IMG/VR virus record: IMGVR_UViG_3300009494_000012
Location: 1 to 33,516 of that record
Direction: 5' to 3' (one strand)
Length of the DNA stretch: 33,516 bases
Origin: a virus
Shown: one piece after another, positions 1,108 to 33,161 of the stretch
How positions within the stretch are numbered: the stretch's first letter is position 1
How the letters are laid out: each line of letters begins with the position of its first letter
Notes under the pieces: generated by a model
What the model was told of the DNA's origin: nothing
The model's database searches: none
Seen by the model: the letters and a program-made list of their open reading frames with translations, nothing else
Translations under genes and position numbers: made by a program

Positions 1108-1749
1108 ATGAACAAGACACGAGAATTCATCGCGGCACAGAAAGAAGCCGAGCAGGAATGTCAGCAAGCCATCGCCACCGTTGCCGGGGTGGAAGAGGTG
1201 CAACTCACCTCGTATCAGGAGGTGGAAGACACCCTGCCCATCATTGCCGAGCTGTGTGAGAAGCGCGAGAAGATCGACGGTGTCCGCAAAAAGTGGACTG
1301 GCGGGTTGAAGGCGGTGATCAACGATATCAACGCCCAGTTCAAGCCGGGGATCGAGGCATACCAGGATGCCGAAAACCACCTCAAGAAAACCGTGGCCAA
1401 CTTCACTCAGAGCCAGTTGGATCGCCGGGACAACTTGTTGAACAGTGTCCAGGCAGCGGCGCCAGCCGAACGCGCAGAAATCATCGCTTCCACCGCAGAT
1501 CTGGTACCACCGAAAATGCCTGGGTTGTCCATCCGTGAAACCTGGAAAGGCAAAATTGCGGACGCCAAGATGCTGCTCCAATGGATCATGAAAAACGAAA
1601 GGTACGAGCTACTGGCCATCAATGAGCAGGCTCTCGGACAACTGACGAAATCAGGGAAGGCCGACCCGGAGATCCCCGGCTGGTTGGCGTGGAGAGAATC
1701 CTCGGCGGTAGTTACCCCCAGCAGGATAAGAAAGGTGGAAGCAAAATGA
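1108..1749 (+). CDS. Coiled-coil phage protein, possibly recombination-associated
   Basis: A 213-residue protein with an ATG at 1108 after GAAAGGA. Residues 1-110 are almost wholly helical and charged (KREKIDGVRKKWTGG, AYQDAENHLKK), suggesting a coiled coil. The C-terminal third contains the pattern GLSIRETWKGKIADAK, then a short helical section and an IPGWLAWRESSAVV strand. That C-terminal arrangement resembles proteins encoded beside phage single-strand annealing proteins and exonucleases (DUF1351 or Gp157-like groups); this link is from memory and not certain. Its stop overlaps the lipoprotein start (ATGA). No catalytic motif is visible. Confidence 0.7.
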   Translation: MNKTREFIAAQKEAEQECQQAIATVAGVEEVQLTSYQEVEDTLPIIAELCEKREKIDGVRKKWTGGLKAVINDINAQFKPGIEAYQDAENHLKKTVANFTQSQLDRRDNLLNSVQAAAPAERAEIIASTADLVPPKMPGLSIRETWKGKIADAKMLLQWIMKNERYELLAINEQALGQLTKSGKADPEIPGWLAWRESSAVVTPSRIRKVEAK

Positions 1750-2240
1750 AAAATGTATTGGTAAGTTTCTTGGTTGCTTTAGCGAGCTGTGCGCCTTTGC
1801 ATGGCATCGATGGCGAAGATGGATGGGAAGGAGGGATCGGCGAAAACGGTTCGGCAGGAGAAGACGGCGAAGACGGCCTGACAGGTGAAAACGGAGAGGA
1901 GGGAACAGCAGGCGAAGGTGGTCCTTCCGGCGAAGACGGCGAGGACGGCGAGGACGGCGAGGACGGCAAGGACGGCGAGGACGGGGAAACCGGTGTCCCG
2001 GGTCCAGGTACGCGCACGGTCATCACTGGAGTTTCCGATTCTGAAGGCCGCGCAACTTTGGTTCTCGACATCGATGTTTCTGACCTTCCAATGATCCAAG
2101 TCTGGGGATACACTCCAGGCGGATTAACAGACATGGTCTACGCTTGGTATCCCTGCCCTATAGCAGTCACTTTTGATGGAGATCTAAAAATCGATACCTT
2201 CGGCAACAACCGTAATTATCAAGTCATCATAGTCCAGTAG
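1746..2240 (+). CDS. Collagen-like lipoprotein
   Basis: A 164-residue protein. The ATG at 1746, overlapping the upstream stop, is preferred to the longer frame because it starts a clean lipoprotein signal: MKN, a hydrophobic stretch, then the lipobox LASC with Cys15 as lipidation site. Mature residue 2 is Ala, which in Gram-negatives favours outer-membrane sorting. Residues 20-88 are 23 unbroken Gly-X-Y triplets, mostly Gly-Glu-Asp, with no interruption, as in bacterial and phage collagen-like proteins. Residues 89-164 form a beta-rich C-terminal domain (YTPGGLTDMVYAWYPC) that could act as trimerisation or binding head. Expected product: a trimeric surface-anchored stalk. Surface modification during infection, blocking of superinfection and a lysis role are all possible and unproven. 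Confidence 0.85.
   Translation: MKNVLVSFLVALASCAPLHGIDGEDGWEGGIGENGSAGEDGEDGLTGENGEEGTAGEGGPSGEDGEDGEDGEDGKDGEDGETGVPGPGTRTVITGVSDSEGRATLVLDIDVSDLPMIQVWGYTPGGLTDMVYAWYPCPIAVTFDGDLKIDTFGNNRNYQVIIVQ
1929..1991 (+). repeat. 9-bp tandem repeat coding for Gly-Glu-Asp
   Basis: Seven consecutive 9-base units close to GGCGAGGAC, the central ones identical or differing by one base, encode the most regular part of the collagen-like stretch (GED GED GED GED GKD GED GET). Such near-identical units can expand or contract in frame by slippage, so repeat number may vary between relatives or be miscounted in a short-read assembly. Confidence 0.9.
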
Positions 2241-20056: not shown

Positions 20057-21022
20057 TTACGAGATAACGCCGTCGAAGTAGCAGCCCAGATCGGAGGCGA
20101 CCAGTTTCTGATCGTACGCCATCTCACCCTCGATGCGGTCTGAGTTGATCTGGTCAAGGCGCATCCTTTTGATCCTGGTACCCTGGCTGCTCGCGCCGAG
20201 ATACCCGGTCCACGAGAACGTGTACCCTGCCGACGGCTGCATCAGGCTCGGACGCGGTGCGGCGTAAACCAGCAAAGCGTCTTTGCTGTAGACCCAGTCC
20301 ATCGCGGCGGTCGCGCCTTCTGCGGCCGTATCTTCGACCACGGATGCGATCAGAACCTCGTCGATGTCCAGCACGGATGCCAGCAACTGCGTGGTCACGA
20401 TCTTGGTGCCCGTGATTGCGATACGGTCGAGGAAATCGGCGTTGTCCTGCAAGATGACCCAGACATCGTCCGACAAGATCAGCTTGTTCGGCCGGAAGCC
20501 GGTCAGCTTTTTCATCGCGGCCATCTCCGTCCGGATGTTGGTGATCGGAACCGAGCCGGCCACATCCCAAAGGACGGCAGGAACGATGTCGGTCAGAGTG
20601 GACGATCCGGTCCAGATCCCGGTGGTGAAGTACTTGGCGGCCCAGTCCTTCTCCCGGCGCAGGGCCAGCCCACGGGTCACGAACTCCGTCGCCTCGGAAT
20701 CGAGGTTGATCGGCTGATCCGAGTTACCTCGCAGCTGATCGTCGATGTCCTTGTGCAGCGCCTGGACCTTGGCGAAGTAGTTCGGAGTGTTGTCGATCTC
20801 GTATCCGGAGCCGGCCGATTCCTGGGACAGACCGCGCACTTGTGCGTCAGTTCGGAACCACTGCTGCTTCAAATATTCGAAGTACCGGTCGCTTTGCTTG
20901 GCGACGGGAATGTTGGGGAAAACCTTATCAGCGATGAAATCATCCATCGACTGAAGGTAGGCCACGCTGATGTTGGTCAGCGGTCTGTTAACATGAACGT
21001 CACTGGGTGTCGGTGAGGGCAT
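20057..21022 (-). CDS. Major capsid protein
   Basis: A 321-residue protein of HK97-fold capsid type. Typical parts are HVNRPLTNISVAYLQSMDDF, IADKVFPNIPVAKQSDRYFE-YLKQQWFR, the RREKDWAAKYFTTGIWTGSS helix, NIRTEMAAMKKLTGFRPNKL-ILSDDVW and the C-terminal GTRIKRMRLDQINSDRIEGE strand pair. These fit Mu-like and related capsid families in size and order. The strong AGGAG site and central position after scaffold and decoration genes support it. There is no long N-terminal delta domain, in line with a separate scaffold gene. Confidence 0.93.
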   Translation of the reverse strand: MPSPTPSDVHVNRPLTNISVAYLQSMDDFIADKVFPNIPVAKQSDRYFEYLKQQWFRTDAQVRGLSQESAGSGYEIDNTPNYFAKVQALHKDIDDQLRGNSDQPINLDSEATEFVTRGLALRREKDWAAKYFTTGIWTGSSTLTDIVPAVLWDVAGSVPITNIRTEMAAMKKLTGFRPNKLILSDDVWVILQDNADFLDRIAITGTKIVTTQLLASVLDIDEVLIASVVEDTAAEGATAAMDWVYSKDALLVYAAPRPSLMQPSAGYTFSWTGYLGASSQGTRIKRMRLDQINSDRIEGEMAYDQKLVASDLGCYFDGVIS

Positions 21023-22102: not shown

Positions 22103-23011
22103 TTACCCGGCGGCCTTCGCTTCTTTATTGTACTGGGCGTAAAGGTCCGCACCGAGCGGGCTCTCCATCACCGTGGCGATTGCTATCTCGCGGCTCATGC
22201 TCAAGTCTTCGGACTTCTCGATGAGGCCGTCGGCCAGTTTCTCGATCTTATCCCAGGCCGAACCGGTGACCTCGTGGACTCGCACGCCTCCGGCGTTTTT
22301 CAGGATCTCGGACTCCTTGAGTGCGTCGGACGCGGCCTTCATCGTGTCGAACTGGGTGTCGGCCATCTTGGGGTCCAGGTCGGCCAAGGATTTGAGCATC
22401 ACGCCCATTTCGTCGATGCTCTTGCCGGGGAAATGGGACAGATCGGCGCGGGCCTTCTCGGTCCATGCGGCCAGCTGACGTGCGTCCGTCTCCACCTGGA
22501 GCTGCTTCTCGACCTTCTCGTTGCGCTCGGTCAACGCGGTGATCTTGTCGTCCGCTGCTTTCTGAATGCCTTGGAAATGCTTCTTGACGTCCTCGGACAG
22601 ACCTTCCGTTTTCTTCCGCTTCATCGCCTCGTCCTCCTCGTCCTCGTCCTCTTCGTCTTCCTTTTTCTTCTCGGCGGCTTTCTTTTCCACGACCGTGGGC
22701 TCGATCCCCACCATCTCGCCGAGCGCCTTCATGAAGTCCGCGGGCATCTCGTCCTTGAAACCAGACACGAGGCGGGCTACTGCCTTGGCAGCGTTTCCGC
22801 CCTTCTCACTGATTCCCATTTTCGTGACCAGCTCCTCGATGGCGTCTTCGCCTTCCAGCTCTGTCTCCAAAACTGCTTTGAGGATTACGTCCCATTTTTC
22901 ATTCGGCATTTTGGTTTTCTCCTGTTTGAATATCGGAAAGCGCTTCTTCTTATTCGCGCCTCTGTCTACAATGGATAATTCCCCAACGTGAAGTTCTTGG
23001 AGTCGTTTCAT
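22103..23011 (-). CDS. Prohead scaffold protein carrying an N-terminal LSIVDRGAN motif
   Basis: A 302-residue helical, highly charged protein. It begins MKRLQELHVGELSIVDRGAN-KKKRF, a motif that normally lies at the C-terminal end of XkdF-type phage proteases. Then follow helices (AIEELVTKMGISEKGGNAAK), a very acidic tract (KKKEDEEDEDEEDEAMKRKK), and a coiled coil (DKITALTERNEKVEKQLQVE). Length, charge and place between protease and capsid genes point to the scaffold. ATGA overlap with the protease gene; GAGAGGA precedes the start. Confidence 0.82.
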   Translation of the reverse strand: MKRLQELHVGELSIVDRGANKKKRFPIFKQEKTKMPNEKWDVILKAVLETELEGEDAIEELVTKMGISEKGGNAAKAVARLVSGFKDEMPADFMKALGEMVGIEPTVVEKKAAEKKKEDEEDEDEEDEAMKRKKTEGLSEDVKKHFQGIQKAADDKITALTERNEKVEKQLQVETDARQLAAWTEKARADLSHFPGKSIDEMGVMLKSLADLDPKMADTQFDTMKAASDALKESEILKNAGGVRVHEVTGSAWDKIEKLADGLIEKSEDLSMSREIAIATVMESPLGADLYAQYNKEAKAAG

Positions 23012-25071
23012 CTGGCGGTCCTCTCCTCCAGATCAACGAAAGTGATTTCCGGCAACTGCGCCCGGGTGACCGGGACTTTGATGCCGAAACCGCCTGGGGA
23101 GAAAGCAGTCAACTGACCGTCCTCGAACATGGCCCATTCTTTCGGGCCGAGGCGGACTCCGACGATCCAAGATCCAGAATGAATGACATCGTCGCCGAAC
23201 TTTCGCCGATAGACTCGATGAGGCTGATCGGACATCGCTGCGAGATAATCTTTTCTACTTGGATATTGCTCAACTGATGTTTCGACCAGCTGGGCGTCGG
23301 CTTTCTTTCCGTGCTGGATACCGATGACGCACGGACCAACTGCGTATTCGTGAGCTGTCTCTTCGACCATCGCTGGCGTCGGCCAATCTCCATGCGCGTC
23401 CTCTTCGGCGCCACTCGCCCCGTAAGGATCGAGCACGACACCGTAAACGATGCGTTTGATTGGATCGGATTTTGCGATGGAAACCGGCTCATTCTTTTTC
23501 TCCGCTTGCTCGGCCAGAACGTCGATGAATCGAGGTTTCTGTCCGGGCGCACCCCACACCAGAAATTCTGCTTTTTGAATTCTCAGCTCGCGTAGAACAT
23601 CTGCGAGGTCGTTTGTTTCGGCGATAGGCGTCTGATTTTTCGGCTTATCTATCAGCCACCGGCGCTTATCTCCAAAAGGTGCCGACAAAAGTAAGTATCG
23701 GCCCGAAAGGTTGTCGCCGTCAAGAAAAATCTCAACCGATTCGTTTTTTACCACTCCGAGCTGAAACGTCCCGGTGTCGTTCAAGAAGAATTTCTCGAAC
23801 TCATTTGCTTCTCCCGGCCCGCTGACGAAAGGCTTCTCGGATCCGACATCGAGCCATTCTTTCGGCGAATTCAGTTTCGGTGACACCTCCAACCTTTTTC
23901 TGACATCCCAATCGATCAAACGATCCTGGTGCTTCAACATCCGGTTGGAATCTGTTTTGCCCAAAGAAACAGCAAAACCGAAAAGATCGTCTTCTCCTTC
24001 GATACGCAGATCACCGTGAACGGCATGCTCCGTCTTCAACATCAGCTGCTCGTCGGTCATACCGATTTCATCTTCCGACAATCCAGACCAGTGATGTTGG
24101 TAGCTGAACCGCCCGGAGCCACTGCGCGGCATCTGCTTGTACCAATCGCCCATGTCCGGGCGAGAGTCGCCTTCGGATTCCGAAAGTTTCGTGGACAAGG
24201 CTTTGAAAATACGCTCCCTCTTTTCGATGAGTTCGCCGATCCGTTTGACCTTCCTAGCTACCTCGCCGGAATCTCCGAACCGCTCCACAGCAGACGGATG
24301 TGGTAAAACGAAATCCGCCCGGTCGCCCAGCTCCTTTGCCACAAGGCGCCCCAAGGCCACCATCACCGTCGGCGCGGCAGCATCCAGAACGCTGCGCTGC
24401 TCGTCACGCCACACTTCCAGCTCGGCATGCCTCGGTTCTCGGCGAGTGCCTTCCATCGATTTCAATACCTGAGGCACCAGCGCCGTCAACAGAACATCTT
24501 CCCGGGCCAGCCCCAGCGGCCGCAGATACTTCTCGACGAAACAGGCGCCGACCGCCCCAACTAAATGCTCGCCTCGAGCCCGCTCCATCGGATCCAAGCT
24601 CGCCTCGATGAACGCTACCTTCGGAGCTTCCGGCCCGGACGCCACTACTTCCGGCACTCCTCGTACAAGGTCGGTGTCGTGCTTTGTCAGAGCTTCGAAT
24701 TCTGCCGTGGCTTCTACTAAAGGCCCGGCCGACACGCCCAGCTTACGCCTGCCCATCTCCTTGCGAGTAACCAGGGCCGCACCAACGATGCTCTCCACGG
24801 GCTTCTTGGACTTCTTCGCGCTGGAGTACCAGCCGCCAAGTTGGCCCCAAACTTCACGGAGGTCGTCATCAGAAGCATCAGTGAGCCCGGCCGAAATCCC
24901 GACCAGGGCGATTTTCTCGACCGCCGATGGCACAAGTTTACGATGTGCCGACCGCCCACCCGACCTGGCCCGGGCAGAGGACATCAGCGAAGAGTACAAC
25001 CATCCCGGCAGATGCTTTTTCGTTTCGATCAGTAGCTCTTCTAAATATTCTCGTGCATTGTCTTTTGGCAT
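23008..25071 (-). CDS. XkdF-type prohead protease fused to UDG-like and LigD phosphoesterase-like domains
   Basis: A 687-residue protein. ATG 25071 is chosen since AGAAGGG lies 8 bases before it and it follows the upstream stop; the frame opens at 25164. Residues 1-130 are helical. Residues 152-279 resemble a family 4/5 uracil-DNA glycosylase fold: VAFIEASLDPMERARGEHLV-GAVG, PTVMVALGRLVAKELG, and LPHPSAVERF with the HPS motif; Fe-S cysteines are absent. Residues 325-477 resemble a LigD 3'-phosphoesterase-type barrel (TEHAVHGDLRIEGEDDLFGF, GDNLSGRYLLLSAPFGDKRR-WLIDKPKN). Residues 539-669 are the XkdF serine protease (RIVYGVVLDPYGASG, IQHGKK with His587, TAFSPGGFGIKV with Ser658). Only the protease role is firmly expected; the others may be structural relics or act on DNA. 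Confidence 0.8.
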   Translation of the reverse strand: MPKDNAREYLEELLIETKKHLPGWLYSSLMSSARARSGGRSAHRKLVPSAVEKIALVGISAGLTDASDDDLREVWGQLGGWYSSAKKSKKPVESIVGAALVTRKEMGRRKLGVSAGPLVEATAEFEALTKHDTDLVRGVPEVVASGPEAPKVAFIEASLDPMERARGEHLVGAVGACFVEKYLRPLGLAREDVLLTALVPQVLKSMEGTRREPRHAELEVWRDEQRSVLDAAAPTVMVALGRLVAKELGDRADFVLPHPSAVERFGDSGEVARKVKRIGELIEKRERIFKALSTKLSESEGDSRPDMGDWYKQMPRSGSGRFSYQHHWSGLSEDEIGMTDEQLMLKTEHAVHGDLRIEGEDDLFGFAVSLGKTDSNRMLKHQDRLIDWDVRKRLEVSPKLNSPKEWLDVGSEKPFVSGPGEANEFEKFFLNDTGTFQLGVVKNESVEIFLDGDNLSGRYLLLSAPFGDKRRWLIDKPKNQTPIAETNDLADVLRELRIQKAEFLVWGAPGQKPRFIDVLAEQAEKKNEPVSIAKSDPIKRIVYGVVLDPYGASGAEEDAHGDWPTPAMVEETAHEYAVGPCVIGIQHGKKADAQLVETSVEQYPSRKDYLAAMSDQPHRVYRRKFGDDVIHSGSWIVGVRLGPKEWAMFEDGQLTAFSPGGFGIKVPVTRAQLPEITFVDLEERTAR

Positions 25072-25087: not shown

Positions 25088-26098
25088 CTACTTCGGTGCT
25101 CGTCCCAAGATCTCAGTACACACGCATCCAGGATGAGCCGGTGGCCCCACAAGAGGTCCGACATCTGAATCGTATGTTCCCTTCAAAGTTGTCTTCATGC
25201 CGTTCAGGTTCAAACAAATCTCGCACGGCGAATTCGGATTTGCGCTGGGAGGCTGCGTAACCCACTCCCGCTCCACCGAAGGCAACCCGCCCGATTCTTC
25301 CGCCACTATCCACGCATCCAGCCGACCCTGTGCCTGCGCCCGTATCGTCTCCGTGCGAGCGATCATCGTCGCCCGTTGCCCCAGCATCTTGGCTTGGTAT
25401 TTGCTGGTCAATGCCACCGCCCGCTCTTCCGCCATCCCAGCGTCCAGGTGTAACTGTTTACGCTTCATCGCCGCGCCCGCCTGGCGATCAGTCAATCCGA
25501 TATTGGACTTGATCTGCGCGATCATGTCCGTCGGCCGAATGCCCTGTTCCATCGCATCGCCGATGATGGCATTGACCATCTTCTTCTGTGTCTTGGTCAT
25601 CTGCTTCGCAAGGTCGAGCCCGTTTTGTTTGACCCATTTTAACGAGTACGGGTTTACCCCAACCGAGACATCGGCACGAGCTTTCTGGATGATGGTCACT
25701 TTCGCATCCGATGGCGGAAGTGCCGAGAATTTCAGCTTTACGCCGAACTGTTTGTTCAAGGCATCAGTGGCCTCGTCCCCTGCGGCCTGGACAACATCCA
25801 AGTACGCCGATTCCAGCTTGTCGTTGAACACCGCGACCGCGCCCTCGGCGGGATCGTCATCGAAATAAGGCAGGGTATTCAGTGCCCTGGACACCGACCC
25901 CGCCCGCCACTCCTTGAGAAATTCCGCCTCGACCTCCGGCGTGATCATGTCCCGGGCCACCTTCATGAACGACCGGATGAATTTCGTTTCATGCTCGGCT
26001 GCGATTTTGTAGCTGTCCTTCAAAGCCGCTTCAGGCAGGTAGACTTTTTGTCGAGCCTTCCAAATTCGGCGGGCCTTGTAGAGCTGGACTAGAGGCAT
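25088..26098 (-). CDS. Minor head protein, Mu F-like
   Basis: A 336-residue protein of the phage Mu F / SPP1 gp7 head morphogenesis family. The family core is in the C-terminal half: ATMIARTETIRAQAQGRLDA (ARTET at 247-251), then SPCEICLNLNG with Cys292 and Cys295, and GPPAHPGCVCTEILG with His322, Cys325 and Cys327. The N-terminal half is helical. The family protein binds the portal and joins the prohead before maturation. The ATG at 26098 has a poor ribosome site, six bases after the holin-like stop. Confidence 0.92.
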   Translation of the reverse strand: MPLVQLYKARRIWKARQKVYLPEAALKDSYKIAAEHETKFIRSFMKVARDMITPEVEAEFLKEWRAGSVSRALNTLPYFDDDPAEGAVAVFNDKLESAYLDVVQAAGDEATDALNKQFGVKLKFSALPPSDAKVTIIQKARADVSVGVNPYSLKWVKQNGLDLAKQMTKTQKKMVNAIIGDAMEQGIRPTDMIAQIKSNIGLTDRQAGAAMKRKQLHLDAGMAEERAVALTSKYQAKMLGQRATMIARTETIRAQAQGRLDAWIVAEESGGLPSVEREWVTQPPSANPNSPCEICLNLNGMKTTLKGTYDSDVGPLVGPPAHPGCVCTEILGRAPK

Positions 26099-26481: not shown

Positions 26482-27906
26482 TCATTCTCCTTTTGTTTTC
26501 GGGGTGCTCGTGCCTCGCATGGGCGCCCGGTTCTGTCTATGTGTGCGACCCCCCGCCAGCCTGGCCTTCCGGACACCTTTTGTCGTATCAGGCGGCAGGT
26601 TCATCTCGCCTTCGGTTGGTTCTTCAGGGATCGGCAGACCCGCTATTTCCAGTAGCCGCCGATCTAGCGCTTCATCTTCGGGCAACTTCCCAGCGTTGGC
26701 CAAAGCCGTCACGTACAAGGCCATCTCGGCCAGGGCCGGAGTTTCGATGTCACCCGCCACCAGCTCAGGCCAAAGCTCGGGTGGAATTCCGTTCAGCTGC
26801 ATCAACGACGCCACCCCGAATCGATTAAACGTGGAAGCGATGATACCCAAAATCGCCCCGAGCGCCATCGCAAACAAATCCGTCTGAGAACTAGCCAGGG
26901 CAAACGACCCTACCGAACTCATGCCCAGCTGAACAAACTGCGCCACCATCGACTGCAGAATGCCGATCTTGTAGTACAGCTTCGTGGCGTTCGTATCGAT
27001 CTGCCTGCTGCCTCCAGTAGTCAGCAGCTTCAGCTTGTACCCGGTGGGCTTGGCGTCCTGGTCCAACTCGGCAGGAATCATGGCGAACTCCCGCTCGTCC
27101 CGCTTCAACTTGGATAGCATGTCTTCCAGCTGCGTCCGCAATGCCCGCTGATCGGAGTCCGCCGTTGTCGCAAGTATCTCGATCGGGACCTCCATCGTCA
27201 GAAGCCCAGTCATGTCGCGCTCGATGCCTATCGCCTCGATGTTCGAAATGCGCTTCAAGTAAAACCAATCGGTGACCGCATTCCGCAGTAGGGACCGACC
27301 TTCCGGGTTGTTCTTCGTGACTTCCGTCCGGAACAACACCGCCTTTTCGATAGGGATAAACGCCTCTTTTCCGCTGGCCAGATCCGACTGGTGCATCCCG
27401 GCCAGCCCACCCTCTTCGTCGAACTCCCACCGATCCAAGGTGTCCTGTGCCCGCAACGCAAACTTCCGCCAGCCGATCTTGCCGTCGCTGTACTTGCTCC
27501 GCATCGAGGTGTCCTTCTCGTCTGGGCCACGCCGAATCTTGTAGACCTTTTCGAAGTAGCTCCAACCGTATTGGAGCATGGACAACACTTCGCTGACCGT
27601 GTCTTCCCACGTCGTGCTCATATCCAGCAGGCACTCTTCTAAGAACTGCGCGGCGTCCAACGCGAGCGGTGTCTCGTCTGCCGGCTCGGCGCGCCATTCC
27701 ACCTGCCGCACCAAAGCCTTGATGATGTACAGCACCGCACCAATGGTACTGCTGTTGTCGGCCATCTCGCGGTATGTCTTAACCCCTTCCTGCCCCTTCA
27801 ACCGACGCAGAAATTCCTCGTCCACAGTGCCGTATGATTGTTTCAGTCCGGAAAACCCCGTGACGCTAAGGTCGACTTTGGGCGTGTCATTTTTCTTTTT
27901 AGCCAT
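26482..27906 (-). CDS. Portal protein, DUF935/Mu gp29-like
   Basis: A 474-residue protein following the large terminase (stop TAG directly before ATG). Characteristic stretches are YREMADNSSTIGAVLYIIKA, WRAEPADETPLALDAAQFLE, QYGWSYFEKVYKIRRGPDEK, and the helical stem region DQRALRTQLEDMLSKLKRDE. This is the DUF935 pattern of Mu-like portals, which make the dodecameric DNA channel and dock the terminase. The C-terminal 60 residues are basic (RKARLAGGRTHRQNRAPMRG). Length fits the family. Confidence 0.93.
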   Translation of the reverse strand: MAKKKNDTPKVDLSVTGFSGLKQSYGTVDEEFLRRLKGQEGVKTYREMADNSSTIGAVLYIIKALVRQVEWRAEPADETPLALDAAQFLEECLLDMSTTWEDTVSEVLSMLQYGWSYFEKVYKIRRGPDEKDTSMRSKYSDGKIGWRKFALRAQDTLDRWEFDEEGGLAGMHQSDLASGKEAFIPIEKAVLFRTEVTKNNPEGRSLLRNAVTDWFYLKRISNIEAIGIERDMTGLLTMEVPIEILATTADSDQRALRTQLEDMLSKLKRDEREFAMIPAELDQDAKPTGYKLKLLTTGGSRQIDTNATKLYYKIGILQSMVAQFVQLGMSSVGSFALASSQTDLFAMALGAILGIIASTFNRFGVASLMQLNGIPPELWPELVAGDIETPALAEMALYVTALANAGKLPEDEALDRRLLEIAGLPIPEEPTEGEMNLPPDTTKGVRKARLAGGRTHRQNRAPMRGTSTPKTKGE

Positions 27907-29337
27907 CTAAATACTCCAGGGACTTGGGCGGGCGCCGCTTGTAGGCAGGGCAAATTTGAAATTCTGGGTACGTTTAGACAATCGGGCCAGTGCCATTGTC
28001 ATGGAGTCGACCTGGTCGTCGTTGACTGCGTTCGGGAAGTTGACCGCCTCTTCGATAAAGTCGTTAGCCCACGGCGCCACTGACTGCTCGGGGATCCACA
28101 CATTGCCCGATTCGATGAGGCCCGACACCGCCACAAGTCTGGCTTCCTTGCTGCCCATAGGACGTTGGCCAATGATGCCTGGGATTTTATCCGAGAGCAT
28201 AGAGATCGCGGCGTGTCCATTGGCGGCTTCCTCGACTATCTTGGCGGTGGCGCCCGGCCATTTTTTCGTTAATCGTTCAATTGCTCGTAACGTACTCGGA
28301 AAATCTAACTTATCACGGACCAGGTCCGCAAGGTAAAAATCCGCACCCTTCCGTCCCCACACCTCGCCGACGACGAAAGACGAACCGAGCGCCTTGAACG
28401 TCAGATCCCACGATTGAATCAGCTCATCGAACTGTTCCGGTAGCTCTTTGTACCGCTGGAACCAATTCCGCTTAACGATCCCACCCTCTAACGGCGCGGG
28501 TCTCTGCTGGTAAAGACCGGCGAACATATACGACGACATGGACTTTTTCGTCTGCTTGAGTACCTCGGCCGAGAACCGTTCTGGACAAAGCGCCTCGCCG
28601 AGTTCACGACCAAGCGGATCATTCTCTTCCGCCAGCGCAGGCAAGCTGATCACTTTCCAGTCGTCCTCATGATCAGACATGAGGTACCCGCTCAAATCTC
28701 CTTCGTGCCAGCGAGTTTGGATCACCACAATGGAGGCCCCCGGCTCGCGGCGGCTGTAGAACGTGGCGTTGAACCAGTCAATCGTCTTGCGGCGGAATAC
28801 CGGAGACAAAGCTTCCTCCCAGTCCTTGTGCGGGTCGTCGATGATGAGCAAGTTCCCACCCTCGCCCGTGATACCGGCGCCAACACCAACCGAAATCATG
28901 CCGCCACCATCCGTCATTTGCCAATCTCCCGCCGATCCGTGCTCCTTCGAAATCTGAACACGGGACTCCGGATGCCTGTCCAGATGGTCCCTGACCTTAC
29001 GCCCCCACTTAGTGGCAAACCGACTTCCGTAGCTGCCCAAGATCACGCGCTGCTCAGGAAATAAATCCAAGTACCAGGCCGGCAACCAGAACGAAATGCC
29101 TTCGCTCTTGCCGTGTCTCGGTGGGGCGTTGATAATGATCCGGGCGTTGCCTTGTATGATCCGCTTCCGCACGTACTCCAGGACATAAGCGATCCATTCG
29201 AAGCGAATCCACAACCCGCCGCTCATCCGCGCGCCATAATCGGACGGAGACAGACGCCAGCCTTGAGACCCGATGATTGCCTGCTCTTCGGGGCTAATCT
29301 GAGTCACCTTCGTCCCGCAACGCTTCGGAAATCGCAT
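27907..29337 (-). CDS. terL: Terminase large subunit
   Basis: A 476-residue packaging motor. Walker A is NAPPRHGKS at 70-78, Walker B LLIIDDP at 163-169 with acidic residues following, and QTRWHEGDLSG (207-217) is the coupling region. The RNase H-like nuclease shows QSWDLTFK with Asp311, IVEEAANG with Glu369/Glu370, and NDDQVDSMTMAL with Asp441/Asp444. The annotated ATG 29337 has a weak ribosome site and overlaps terS by 44 bases; a GTG at 29307 after GGGACGAAG would shorten it by 10 residues. It belongs to the terminase_6-type group. Confidence 0.95.
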   Translation of the reverse strand: MRFPKRCGTKVTQISPEEQAIIGSQGWRLSPSDYGARMSGGLWIRFEWIAYVLEYVRKRIIQGNARIIINAPPRHGKSEGISFWLPAWYLDLFPEQRVILGSYGSRFATKWGRKVRDHLDRHPESRVQISKEHGSAGDWQMTDGGGMISVGVGAGITGEGGNLLIIDDPHKDWEEALSPVFRRKTIDWFNATFYSRREPGASIVVIQTRWHEGDLSGYLMSDHEDDWKVISLPALAEENDPLGRELGEALCPERFSAEVLKQTKKSMSSYMFAGLYQQRPAPLEGGIVKRNWFQRYKELPEQFDELIQSWDLTFKALGSSFVVGEVWGRKGADFYLADLVRDKLDFPSTLRAIERLTKKWPGATAKIVEEAANGHAAISMLSDKIPGIIGQRPMGSKEARLVAVSGLIESGNVWIPEQSVAPWANDFIEEAVNFPNAVNDDQVDSMTMALARLSKRTQNFKFALPTSGARPSPWSI

Positions 29338-29925: not shown

Positions 29926-30792
29926 CTATGTCCTGCTAACAATTTTCATCCCATACTCGTTCGGCTCGTCCGGGATTATAACACCATCCCTCCGTATCAG
30001 CCTGTTATTTTTGAACGGCCGGTAGTCAACACGATGGTGCCAGCGACCAAACTTCCAAACGAGCTTTGTTACGTCTGGATGCAAAGCAACCAGCGCCTCC
30101 GATTTTGGATATGTGCCCTCTTTCTCATAAAACTCTTCCGTGTTTCCCCCCTCGACATACTGCGTTGTCATCTTCAGCTGCAAAAAAGCATTGAACTGCG
30201 CTGTGCACCATCCCGCCTTGAGTATCCGAAGCGACAAATCGGTATCTTCGTTGTACCTGCTACGCCACCGAAACGGCACATCGTTTCGGATAAGGTTGCA
30301 AGAATAGACGCGGGTATTGAAAACGACCGGAGGTACCTTGTCTTTCCGCGAGGCAAACATGAAATAGTTCGGGCCCGCCGTTGCTATGTTCTTGTACCGT
30401 AAACAGAAATCCTCCATCACCTTGAACAGCGTGCCATCCTTTACCGGTATTTGCGAATTACGATTGAATCGATGGAATAGCCGAATGTTATCATCCATCA
30501 CCCAATGCCACCTGTGGCCGTTGGCGACAGCATGATCCCAAATAAAGTTTCGCGCCGGCCCTGCTCCCTTACTCTTGGTATCTCCAAGATCATCGCAAGT
30601 GTTATAATCTCGCTGGTATGTTTCATCGAGGACAAGCAGCTTTTTCTCATCCATCACCGCCGCGTAGTCATCGTGTTCCTGGTCTTCAACAACCACCAGG
30701 AACGGCACACCCATCAACTCTAGTACCTTCATAGTCATGCGGCTGTCAGCACGTCCCTTGGAAGGGATGTAGAGCGGGAACTGCGGGTTCAT
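29926..30792 (-). CDS. TET-associated-type glycosyltransferase (TAGT)
   Basis: A 288-residue GT-A-type glycosyltransferase. The N-terminal LYIPSKGRADSRMTMKVLEL followed by GVPFLVVVEDQEHDDYA is the hallmark of the TAGT family described in phages with modified 5-hydroxymethylpyrimidines. VMDDN at 98-102 supplies the metal/nucleotide-sugar Asp pair, and RYNEDTDLSLRI (179-190) gives the acceptor-site acidic pair. GPARNFIWDHA lies between, as in the family. It should add a sugar to an oxidised base in phage DNA. It sits directly between the radical SAM genes and terS, AAAGGA before the ATG. No TET/JBP oxygenase is in the window. Confidence 0.87.
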   Translation of the reverse strand: MNPQFPLYIPSKGRADSRMTMKVLELMGVPFLVVVEDQEHDDYAAVMDEKKLLVLDETYQRDYNTCDDLGDTKSKGAGPARNFIWDHAVANGHRWHWVMDDNIRLFHRFNRNSQIPVKDGTLFKVMEDFCLRYKNIATAGPNYFMFASRKDKVPPVVFNTRVYSCNLIRNDVPFRWRSRYNEDTDLSLRILKAGWCTAQFNAFLQLKMTTQYVEGGNTEEFYEKEGTYPKSEALVALHPDVTKLVWKFGRWHHRVDYRPFKNNRLIRRDGVIIPDEPNEYGMKIVSRT

Positions 30793-30804
30793 TATCGTCC
30801 TTTC

Positions 30805-32184
30805 TTAGCTAAGAAAATTCGAGTGCGGGGAGTCATTGTACATCTGCTCTAAAGTCTTATTTGCCTCCGCCAGTTTGCAATTACTTGGGCACATCCGTAC
30901 AACAACAGCCTGCCCTGTAGCGTGCCTATCTTCATTCACCCAAAGGTCAACAAACCGCCGCTCCTTCGATAACTTCCCGTAAACCCCGATGCCACTCCGA
31001 CTGAAAACATAATCCATCATGTGACAGCAAACAAGCACAGTACCGTCCGCACAGATAGTCGGACAGAACGGATGGCACCAGCACTTTGAGAAAGGCAGGC
31101 CATCCGTTTCAGAAAGAAGAACAGCAACGAACTTGTAACCCGGAGTGTAGATTGCAAAGCCGTCGCGCTCATACGCTCCCAGCATGACGAGTGTATCGAA
31201 AATCCTTCGATCCCAGTAAATCGAATCGATACTCATTCCACGCTCGACAGGCGGAATCTCTAACGGCTTCACCTGAAAGTAGTCGAGCCCTTCGATCTCG
31301 CGGAACTGCAAGACGCTCGTGATGATCTCCAAGTAGTTCCCTGGAGTCATGAGGTACGAAACCCCGAGTGTCGTGTTCGAGCCTACATGCTCCTTCGCGA
31401 TGCCGAGTCGAACAATACCAGCGATGAGCTTCTCGAAGTTCACCGCAGCAACCTGTCCGTGCATCTTCTCGTATCCTTCCTGACTCCCGGCATCGACGCT
31501 GACACGGCACCACGCACAACATTCAACCACAGCCTCAATAACCTCTGCCATCTCTGCAGTATCTTTGTACAGTAGCGACCCATTCGTAACAAGACCGACC
31601 TCGATACCTGCGGCATGAATGCCTCGAATGATTTGCGCCAACTGCGGGTGAAGTAGCGGCTCACCTCCTCCAGAAAGAATAACTCCGCGCACCTTCAGCT
31701 TGACCATGTCCTCCAGTAGTTTGGAGAAAAGGTCCATATCGAACTTCGCCTTCCAGAACTGCCCCTGCTCTCCGTGCTCTTTCGCCCGCTTCGGTATACT
31801 GAATGTGCATCCCGGACAATGATGATTGCAGACGTTCGAAGGATGAAGCTCCACAGTTATCGGGCCGACTTCCTCGGGGCGTTCTGCATCGAGCGCAGAC
31901 ACCTTATCGACATGTCGAAGGATCTTAGACGAGTGGAAAAATCCAGTCGCCCTCGAAGCAGAATGCGTCTTGAACTTATCTAGATTCGCTCTCTCCATCT
32001 CCAGCATAAGATCACGGAGATGTCCAAGAGCACGAGGTGGAAAATTCCGCATATTATCGGCTTGCATAAATGCGTCATAGTCCTCTATCGAAAGAGAAAG
32101 ACGCGAACAGAAATCCTTGAGACCCAACCGAAGGTCACTGCGTACCCGTTCAAGAAGATCCGCCCGAAGCACTCCATTATTCAT
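30805..32184 (-). CDS. Radical SAM/SPASM-type enzyme with helical N-terminal domain
   Basis: A 459-residue protein; ATG 32184 (ATGA overlap, AGAAAGG 7 bases before) is chosen over the upstream start. Residues 1-100 are helical (ADLLERVRSDLRLGLKDFCS) and of no known family. The radical SAM core follows: C119-x3-C123-x2-C126 (CNHHCPGC) for the 4Fe-4S/SAM cluster, ILSGGGEPLLHP (GGEP motif, near 169-180) and GLVTNGSLL. The C-terminal part has extra cysteines at 368, 370, 374, 378, 386, 387, 432 and 436 (CWCHPFC, VCCHMMD, MCPSNC), as in SPASM domains that hold auxiliary clusters. Substrate unknown; neighbours suggest DNA base or sugar modification. Confidence 0.85.
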   Translation of the reverse strand: MNNGVLRADLLERVRSDLRLGLKDFCSRLSLSIEDYDAFMQADNMRNFPPRALGHLRDLMLEMERANLDKFKTHSASRATGFFHSSKILRHVDKVSALDAERPEEVGPITVELHPSNVCNHHCPGCTFSIPKRAKEHGEQGQFWKAKFDMDLFSKLLEDMVKLKVRGVILSGGGEPLLHPQLAQIIRGIHAAGIEVGLVTNGSLLYKDTAEMAEVIEAVVECCAWCRVSVDAGSQEGYEKMHGQVAAVNFEKLIAGIVRLGIAKEHVGSNTTLGVSYLMTPGNYLEIITSVLQFREIEGLDYFQVKPLEIPPVERGMSIDSIYWDRRIFDTLVMLGAYERDGFAIYTPGYKFVAVLLSETDGLPFSKCWCHPFCPTICADGTVLVCCHMMDYVFSRSGIGVYGKLSKERRFVDLWVNEDRHATGQAVVVRMCPSNCKLAEANKTLEQMYNDSPHSNFLS

Positions 32185-33161
32185 GTACTGACCTTTCTCC
32201 ATGCCATGCCATCCCAGTATATACCGACCTCCTCATCTTTCCAATGCCGGAAGTCGCATCGGGAAAAAGTCACATTGCATCGCCGACAGTAGTCCGAAGC
32301 GCCAGCGCGATCTTTCTCCCGCAAGCGTAGCCGGATTTCCTGCATCCGCTTGCTGTACCAGAACGCCTTGAACCCTGAGACACCGTCATGAACAGAGCCG
32401 AAATCCTCTTGTGCCGACTCACCTGTGTTGTCCTGACAACACACAAGATAACGCCCACGCGAATCGACATTCACGTACAGGAACGGCTGGTTGCATCTCC
32501 GAGTAAGCGGTTCCGTAACAGGCTTCAAACCGAACCGAGCGGCTTTCTCCCAGTCCAAATGGTTGAACCACGTGCCGAGCAATCCTGCACGGAATCGGCT
32601 TTTTGGCCAGTTTTCCGGCTGCTCCTGGAGAACGATCAATTTCAAACCCGGGCCGTGGTAGTTCCACGGGGAAGGAGCGCCATCAGGAGCGTCGTAGTAC
32701 TCGTAAAACGGACACCCAGACGCTTTTGCCAGTTCAATGTACTTCTCCTGGGAACCGTACATGTCGGTATAGACGACATTTGCCCCTGCCTGCAATAGCT
32801 GACGATAAGTAAGCTTGCCGTTTCGAATCTGCGTCCCGTTCGTTGTGATCTGTATCTGAGACAACGGAGATATTTTTCGAGCGATGGTTAGAAACTCAGG
32901 CAGATCAGGATGCAACGTCGGCTCCCCACCGAACGCCAGATCCGCCCGCCTTGTGGGAGACACTACCGAGATGATTTTCCACAAAGCCACCCACGTCACC
33001 CTATCCATGAAATGGAAAGTCTTCGGCTTCGGATCCAAAGCACAGCTACAATGACCACAACTTAAATTACATCCATGAGTAGGCTCGATGCACCACACCC
33101 AAGGGCTGGTACTCCCCATCGGGTTGACCTTTTTAGGTGTCTTTACTGGAGGGAAGATCAT
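32181..33161 (-). CDS. Radical SAM/SPASM-type enzyme
   Basis: A 326-residue protein with AGGAGA before its ATG. EPTHGCNLSCGHCSC carries C31-x3-C35-x2-C38, followed by LAFGGEPTLHPDLPEF (GGEP, 78-81), IQITTNGTQI and a partial TIM barrel ending about residue 215. The C-terminal region has RCNQPFLYVNVDSRGRYLVC-CQDN and YCRRCNVTFSRCDF (Cys223, 241, 242, 292, 295, 302), typical of a SPASM-like auxiliary cluster region. It overlaps both neighbours by ATGA, so it is made together with the second radical SAM enzyme. Similar to, but only distantly related with, that neighbour; a sequential pathway is plausible. Confidence 0.87.
   Translation of the reverse strand: MIFPPVKTPKKVNPMGSTSPWVWCIEPTHGCNLSCGHCSCALDPKPKTFHFMDRVTWVALWKIISVVSPTRRADLAFGGEPTLHPDLPEFLTIARKISPLSQIQITTNGTQIRNGKLTYRQLLQAGANVVYTDMYGSQEKYIELAKASGCPFYEYYDAPDGAPSPWNYHGPGLKLIVLQEQPENWPKSRFRAGLLGTWFNHLDWEKAARFGLKPVTEPLTRRCNQPFLYVNVDSRGRYLVCCQDNTGESAQEDFGSVHDGVSGFKAFWYSKRMQEIRLRLREKDRAGASDYCRRCNVTFSRCDFRHWKDEEVGIYWDGMAWRKVST

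Follow-up and report, generated by a model that had tools for sequence, protein, structure and literature searches.

DNA repair-type domains on a phage prohead protease and their possible role in the phage head

Why should a phage carry, in one chain with its capsid maturation protease, domains that resemble DNA repair enzymes? The question is raised by a gene in a window of 33,516 nucleotides of viral DNA (the whole stretch that was analysed), for which a preliminary description had proposed a 687-residue chain at 23008-25071 combining a UDG-like domain, a LigD phosphoesterase (PE)-like domain and a prohead protease. Profile and fold matches both bear this out, the residue ranges proposed for the three folds are correct, and we confirm that the fusion of the three named domains in one chain is real.

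The fusion gene and its place among head genes

The features of the window that enter the argument are the following.
23008..25071 (-): whole fusion gene, 687 aa, with N-domain, UDG-like domain, PE-like domain and XkdF/S78_2 protease
24715..25068 (-): N-terminal helical domain, conserved in relatives and modelled with six helices (718-codon frame, residues 33-150)
24211..24657 (-): UDG-superfamily domain; H289 and E194 kept; motif 1 EASLD; N80 equivalent Ala
23590..24153 (-): LigD 3'-phosphoesterase-like domain with the equivalents of Q40, H42, H48, D50 and R52 (YQHH...HGDLR) and without those of H84 and Y88
23023..23487 (-): XkdF-type (Peptidase_S78_2) prohead protease domain, His618 and Ser689
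22103..23011 (-): acidic, scaffold-like gene that overlaps the stop of the protease via ATGA
20057..21022 (-): major capsid protein, the query by which relatives were found
25088..26098 (-): MuF-like gene for head morphogenesis, next upstream of the fusion gene (PF04233, 3.2e-8; phrog_3517, 5.5e-21)
26482..27906 (-): portal protein (PF06074, 1.3e-27)
27907..29337 (-): terminase large subunit
29926-30792 (-): TET-associated glycosyltransferase, TAGT (PF20691, 5e-44)

The gene forms the C-terminal portion of a longer open frame (718 codons, 25164 to 23008, minus strand) whose start falls inside the MuF gene. The ATG at 25071, already chosen in the preliminary description, is the best start, since AGAAGG stands 9 nt upstream of it, the MuF stop at 25088 has just been passed, and the N-termini of relatives start at the same point. 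The fusion gene lies between the MuF-like and the scaffold-like gene. Upstream are a terminase small subunit-like gene (phrog_6299) and the terminase large subunit, portal, holin-like and MuF-like genes, and downstream are the scaffold-like gene, a head protein and the major capsid protein. The scaffold-like gene opens with a VDRGANKK motif, which is also N-terminal in ordinary XkdF proteins (P0002 and P0003 were compared). Elsewhere in the window, positions 1689-2240 (+) encode a predicted lipoprotein-like start (ALASC) and a collagen-like Gly-x-y stretch (GEDGEDGEDG...).

The domain assignments were made by profile searches and by comparing an AlphaFold2 model of the fusion protein (27-row alignment, mean pLDDT 83) with the PDB in Foldseek and VIA-align 2. 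The helical N-terminal domain, which spans about 130 residues in the model, was assigned to no known family by Pfam search. The protease domain matches PF14550 (Peptidase_S78_2) at 6.8e-10 over residues 563-693, above the gathering score, and has the catalytic His and Ser of that family. The UDG domain matches PF03167 above the gathering score (1.4e-6, residues 191-296), the UDG alignment of the family finds type-4 UDGs in the PDB at 1.1e-14, and the model superimposes on Thermus UDGa structures with Z 17-18 (for 1ui1, Z 18.0, rmsd 2.6 over 151 residues). For the PE domain the Pfam match to LigD_N (PF13298) is below threshold in the fusion protein (0.036) and in the relatives, where it is the sole Pfam family that members share in the mid-region (12 of 13, best 9e-4, also below threshold); NCBIfam LigD_PE_dom gives the same below-threshold pattern. 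The alignment profile of the family nevertheless retrieves nothing but PE domains from the PDB at E<0.01, and the model matches the archaeal LigD PE structure 3p43 with Z 12.7 and rmsd 2.4 over 121 of 124 residues at 26% identity. Structural matches thus exist for both repair-type folds, and not all of their active-site positions are gone.

Two lines of evidence indicate that the fusion is not an assembly accident. First, the same domain order is found in dozens of independent contigs. Secondly, dN/dS against the nearest relative (L008) is low, namely 0.07 in the UDG tail, 0.11 in the PE and 0.11 in the protease, which implies comparable purifying selection on all three.

Relatives and their additional modules

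When the whole fusion protein was compared with reference phages by tblastn, nothing was found at 1e-5, and at E<=10 the matches were mostly ordinary XkdF proteases together with one stand-alone family-4 UDG. Against viral contigs, neither the full chain alone nor the UDG alone found relatives, and a single-protein PE query found one. The neighbouring major capsid protein led to 69 viral contigs, whose protease genes contain the same domains, often with extra sequence between the N-domain and the UDG, and a scan with the PE alignment gave 80 viral loci and one locus in a prokaryote genome (a Dehalococcoides MAG).

The insert of the relatives is an ATP-dependent DNA ligase (PF01068, 1.7e-24 in L009 by Pfam; 1.5e-20 as a profile against solved DNA ligases). 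Its modelled fold matches solved DNA ligases over about 400 columns, the OB part included, and the catalytic residues are kept, the motif I Lys in 62/63 and the motif IV Glu in 62/63 relatives. The domain that precedes the ligase has a GS...DxD...D pattern like that of Pol-beta-type nucleotidyltransferases (NTases); the first two Asp residues are present in 65/66 and 66/66 members and the third in 57/66. This assignment should be read as a motif-based call, since Pfam support is weak (PF01909 hits 8 of 30 members and reaches 5e-4 at best), the NTase profile has no match in the PDB, and in model md4ef128ab22a the pLDDT of the NTase part is below 50. LigD_Prim-Pol (PF21686) was matched at E<=1 neither by the phage protein nor by nine relatives, and the NTase-like region stands at that place. 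The capsid protease does bear repair-type domains, as the preliminary description saw, and in the chain of the relatives a DNA ligase of the ATP-dependent kind and an NTase-like domain are added to them.

A census with profiles of all six modules yielded 94 non-redundant ORFs from metagenomic virus contigs. The full order N-NTase-ligase-UDG-PE-protease is found in one frame in 29 of them and the full order minus UDG in 11, and most remaining ORFs hold a subset of the six modules. Histidine-repeat regions occur in some other forms (L025, L026, L073) and methyltransferase inserts in L019 and L031, still others miss single modules, and in L067-L069 the NTase-ligase protein has a gene of its own immediately ahead of that for the protease. 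Several relatives are without UDG, PE or ligase, which implies that no single activity is indispensable. Judged by its sequence, the gene of our phage is a shortened form without NTase and ligase. In a quick protease tree of modest support, the phage and other forms devoid of these two modules are nested among those with the full architecture, so that NTase and ligase probably disappeared on more than one occasion.

Programmed frameshifting was considered for three split polyproteins (L123, L144, L150) and rejected; their breaks show short local duplications or a deletion and are likely artefacts. The repeats within the protease polyproteins of L025 (6240-8579), L026, L073 and L030 are of a DGxHxH type, histidine-rich and metal-binding-like. 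The 1325-codon frame of a Dehalococcoides MAG (L153, 2800-6774) encodes what appear from sequence to be two tandem D12-methyltransferase-like units, with NTase, ligase and a PE-like domain.

UDG and ligase were searched for in 32 records, which may be partial, so that absences weigh little. The UDG profile matched 24 of the records once each, and by coordinates and open-frame length 23 of these 24 matches lie in the polyprotein, G020 being the sole exception. The ligase profile matched 21 of the 32; the polyprotein-type enzyme is the only ATP ligase in 19, and a second conventional ligase is present in the other two.

Active sites of the fused domains

The key positions of Thermus UDGa are E41, G42, E47, F54, N80 and H155 (PMC5387724). 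In the phage the catalytic His of motif 2 (HPSA) is H289, which is kept in 54/56 aligned relatives, and the equivalent of E47 is E194, a position with E or D in 53/53. Motif 1, in contrast, reads EASLD in the phage as against GExPG (GE[AG]PG) in family-4 UDGs, and mostly GASP[GS] in the relatives, the E41 position being mostly Ala. The uracil-reading Asn (N80) is replaced by Ala228 in the phage and is Asn in 37/52 relatives; together with G40 and P43 it is gone in the phage while most relatives retain these positions. No Cys occurs at the positions aligned with the four Fe-S cluster cysteines of UDGa, and the KRRIH loop of UdgX with its H109 is absent, the aligned stretch in the phage being GTRREP. 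The UDG domain of the phage is thus, as far as its residues indicate, among the more decayed of the family, and without motif 1 and the Asn that reads uracil it probably has no uracil glycosylase activity. On this point the preliminary description, which had allowed for glycosylase activity in the phage, is not supported.

The positions of note in LigD PE are H42, H48, D50, R52, H84 and Y88, and PaeLigD mutated at H84 or Y88 is inactive (PMC8656161). The Mn ligands H42, H48 and D50 as well as R52 are each found in 79/79 aligned members, the phage included, whereas for H84 and Y88 the matching stretch of the PE alignment (A3) contains no conserved His or Tyr in the whole family. For this reason we name the domain PE-like, not a PE, and, given the inactive PaeLigD mutants, the domains may not perform the known PE chemistry. 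The protease has retained its catalytic His in 77/78 and its Ser in 74/74 aligned members.

From these losses it could be hypothesized that enzyme folds have been reused as core or scaffold, and that they fill the prohead, place the protease and bind DNA with no catalysis. The loss of motif 1 and N80 in the phage UDG, the PE without H84 and Y88 throughout the family, and the frequent loss or swapping of domains would all agree with such reuse. However, a structural role would not need the catalytic residues of ligase, NTase and protease and the metal ligands of the PE to be near invariant over about 60-80 divergent proteins, as they are, nor does it sit well with a PE dN/dS equal to that of the protease. 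We regard purely structural reuse as unlikely, if still worth serious consideration.

A proposed head-targeted polyprotein and its alternatives

Prohead proteases go into the procapsid, where they cut the scaffold and themselves, and the internal proteins of T4 stay in the head. We favor, with moderate confidence, the hypothesis that the family encodes a self-cleaving, head-targeted DNA-processing polyprotein, of which the gene of our phage is a shortened and locally diverged form. The position of the gene amid terminase, portal, MuF, scaffold and capsid genes counts in favor of this hypothesis, as do the domain matches, the recurring module order and the conserved catalytic residues described above. 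Against it count the missing H84 and Y88 of the PE domains, the UDG positions lost in the phage, the motif-based call of the NTase and the absence of single modules from several relatives. Packaging, self-cleavage and enzymatic action we infer as follows. The C-terminal protease would take its N-terminal cargo into the procapsid, and would there cut the scaffold and the linkers of its own chain. The folded domains (15-40 kDa), too big to exit with the peptide debris, may then remain inside the head, in analogy to the T4 internal proteins. In the head, or following ejection with the genome, they would bind and process damaged sites and 3' ends of the phage DNA, and in the relatives ligase and NTase would fill and seal. 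The fuller set of UDG, end-cleaning PE-like domain, NTase and ligase would fit base excision and end joining. In our phage the UDG-like domain would probably bind DNA or damaged sites and not act as a uracil glycosylase, and the PE-like domain would probably work on 3' ends as a metal-dependent enzyme whose site is altered.

A bolder version of this hypothesis holds that the virion contains a complete base-excision and end-joining kit as one polyprotein, freed by its own protease, which mends the incoming genome against damage or against base-removing or nicking host immunity. Brig1, a base-excising defence glycosylase (PMC11078745), is an example of such immunity, and a counter to defences of this type is possible. 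We consider the complete version doubtful.

Alternatively, the enzymes could act on the DNA of the producing cell or at packaging, mending nicks and gaps of the concatemer so that terminase fills the heads, with the protease fusion merely localising them to the prohead. The gene's place among head and packaging genes is compatible with this, as is the polyprotein ligase being the only ATP ligase found in most records; these are often partial, however, and other repair genes may escape detection. Moreover, packaging repair has no obvious need for a glycosylase-fold domain, and a protease inside a closed shell would hold the enzymes away from the DNA outside. We find this explanation rather improbable.

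The window also contains, at 29926-33161 (-), the TAGT gene and then two radical-SAM genes, which together probably form a cluster for the hypermodification of DNA bases. Its proximity is what speaks for the proposal of the preliminary description that the UDG-like domain inspects the hypermodified bases of the phage, but the TAGT family occurs in only 1 of the 32 (partial) records with the fusion or its kin, the phage's own, so that the fusion does not depend on the glycosyltransferase and the proposed link is very improbable.

With a head-targeted polyprotein as the preferred reading, the nearest known theme is that of the polyvalent proteins of phages and conjugative elements (Iyer et al. 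2017, PMC5512222). These likewise combine several enzymatic or effector-type domains in a chain coded among virion genes, and are expected to be packaged and delivered with the DNA; we would expect the same of the fusion. What differs is the XkdF protease as carrier and a DNA repair set as cargo. The main text of PMC5512222 mentions no glycosylase or LigD ('prohead' and 'uracil' occur in its reference list only), and excerpts of a jumbo-phage study (PMC7824862) mention XkdF peptidases and contain no such protease-repair fusion. Nor did searches of open-access literature yield a description of the fusion.

Partial counterparts exist in other systems. XkdF/Peptidase_S78_2-DNA methyltransferase fusions (a PHROG 1530 label, and L029) have the same protease family behind a DNA-acting domain, which there serves methylation, whereas our family has glycosylase, end-processing, NTase and ligase domains; in L029 (3-1370) one frame encodes a D12 adenine methyltransferase, DUF6582 and the S78_2 protease. 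LigD of bacterial NHEJ (Pol-PE-ligase) resembles the chain of the relatives in its PE fold with the Mn triad and its ATP-dependent ligase, but the relatives have a Pol-beta-type NTase-like domain in the place of an AEP primase-polymerase, for which no match was detected, an added UDG and protease, and a PE without H84/Y88. Type-4 UDG (UDGa) and UdgX share the fold (Z 15-18), the motif-2 His and the E47 equivalent with our UDG-like domain, and differ in their Fe-S cysteines, the KRRIH loop of UdgX, and motif 1, which is GASPG in most of our relatives and EASLD in the phage. The archaeal virus ANMV-1 has an NTase-ligase-PE chain adjoining the portal gene, without protease fusion and without UDG. 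That chain is annotated as 'ATP-dependent DNA ligase' (AJP62006; L077, 3200-5797 of KP703175) and corresponds to NTase-ligase-PE-like, and the adjoining gene, annotated as MutT-like hydrolase, is the portal (Phage_portal_3, 3.2e-22 by Pfam). A separate composite, predicted from sequence and annotation, is a 1000-aa protein of Arthrobacter phage Mufasa8 (L004, 1096-4098) with portal-like N-terminus, Nudix-like middle and MuF-like C-terminus, whose gene adjoins the head protease.

In conclusion, if the domains are active, some phages would package a pathway for DNA repair in the form of one self-processing chain on the head protease, and repair would start ahead of any phage gene expression. This would bear on how virion DNA that is nicked, gapped or lacking bases survives entry, and a counter to base-excising defences of the Brig1 type would suggest itself. 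For biochemistry, the fusion should also be useful as a compact natural combination of NTase-like, ligase, UDG-like and PE-like modules.
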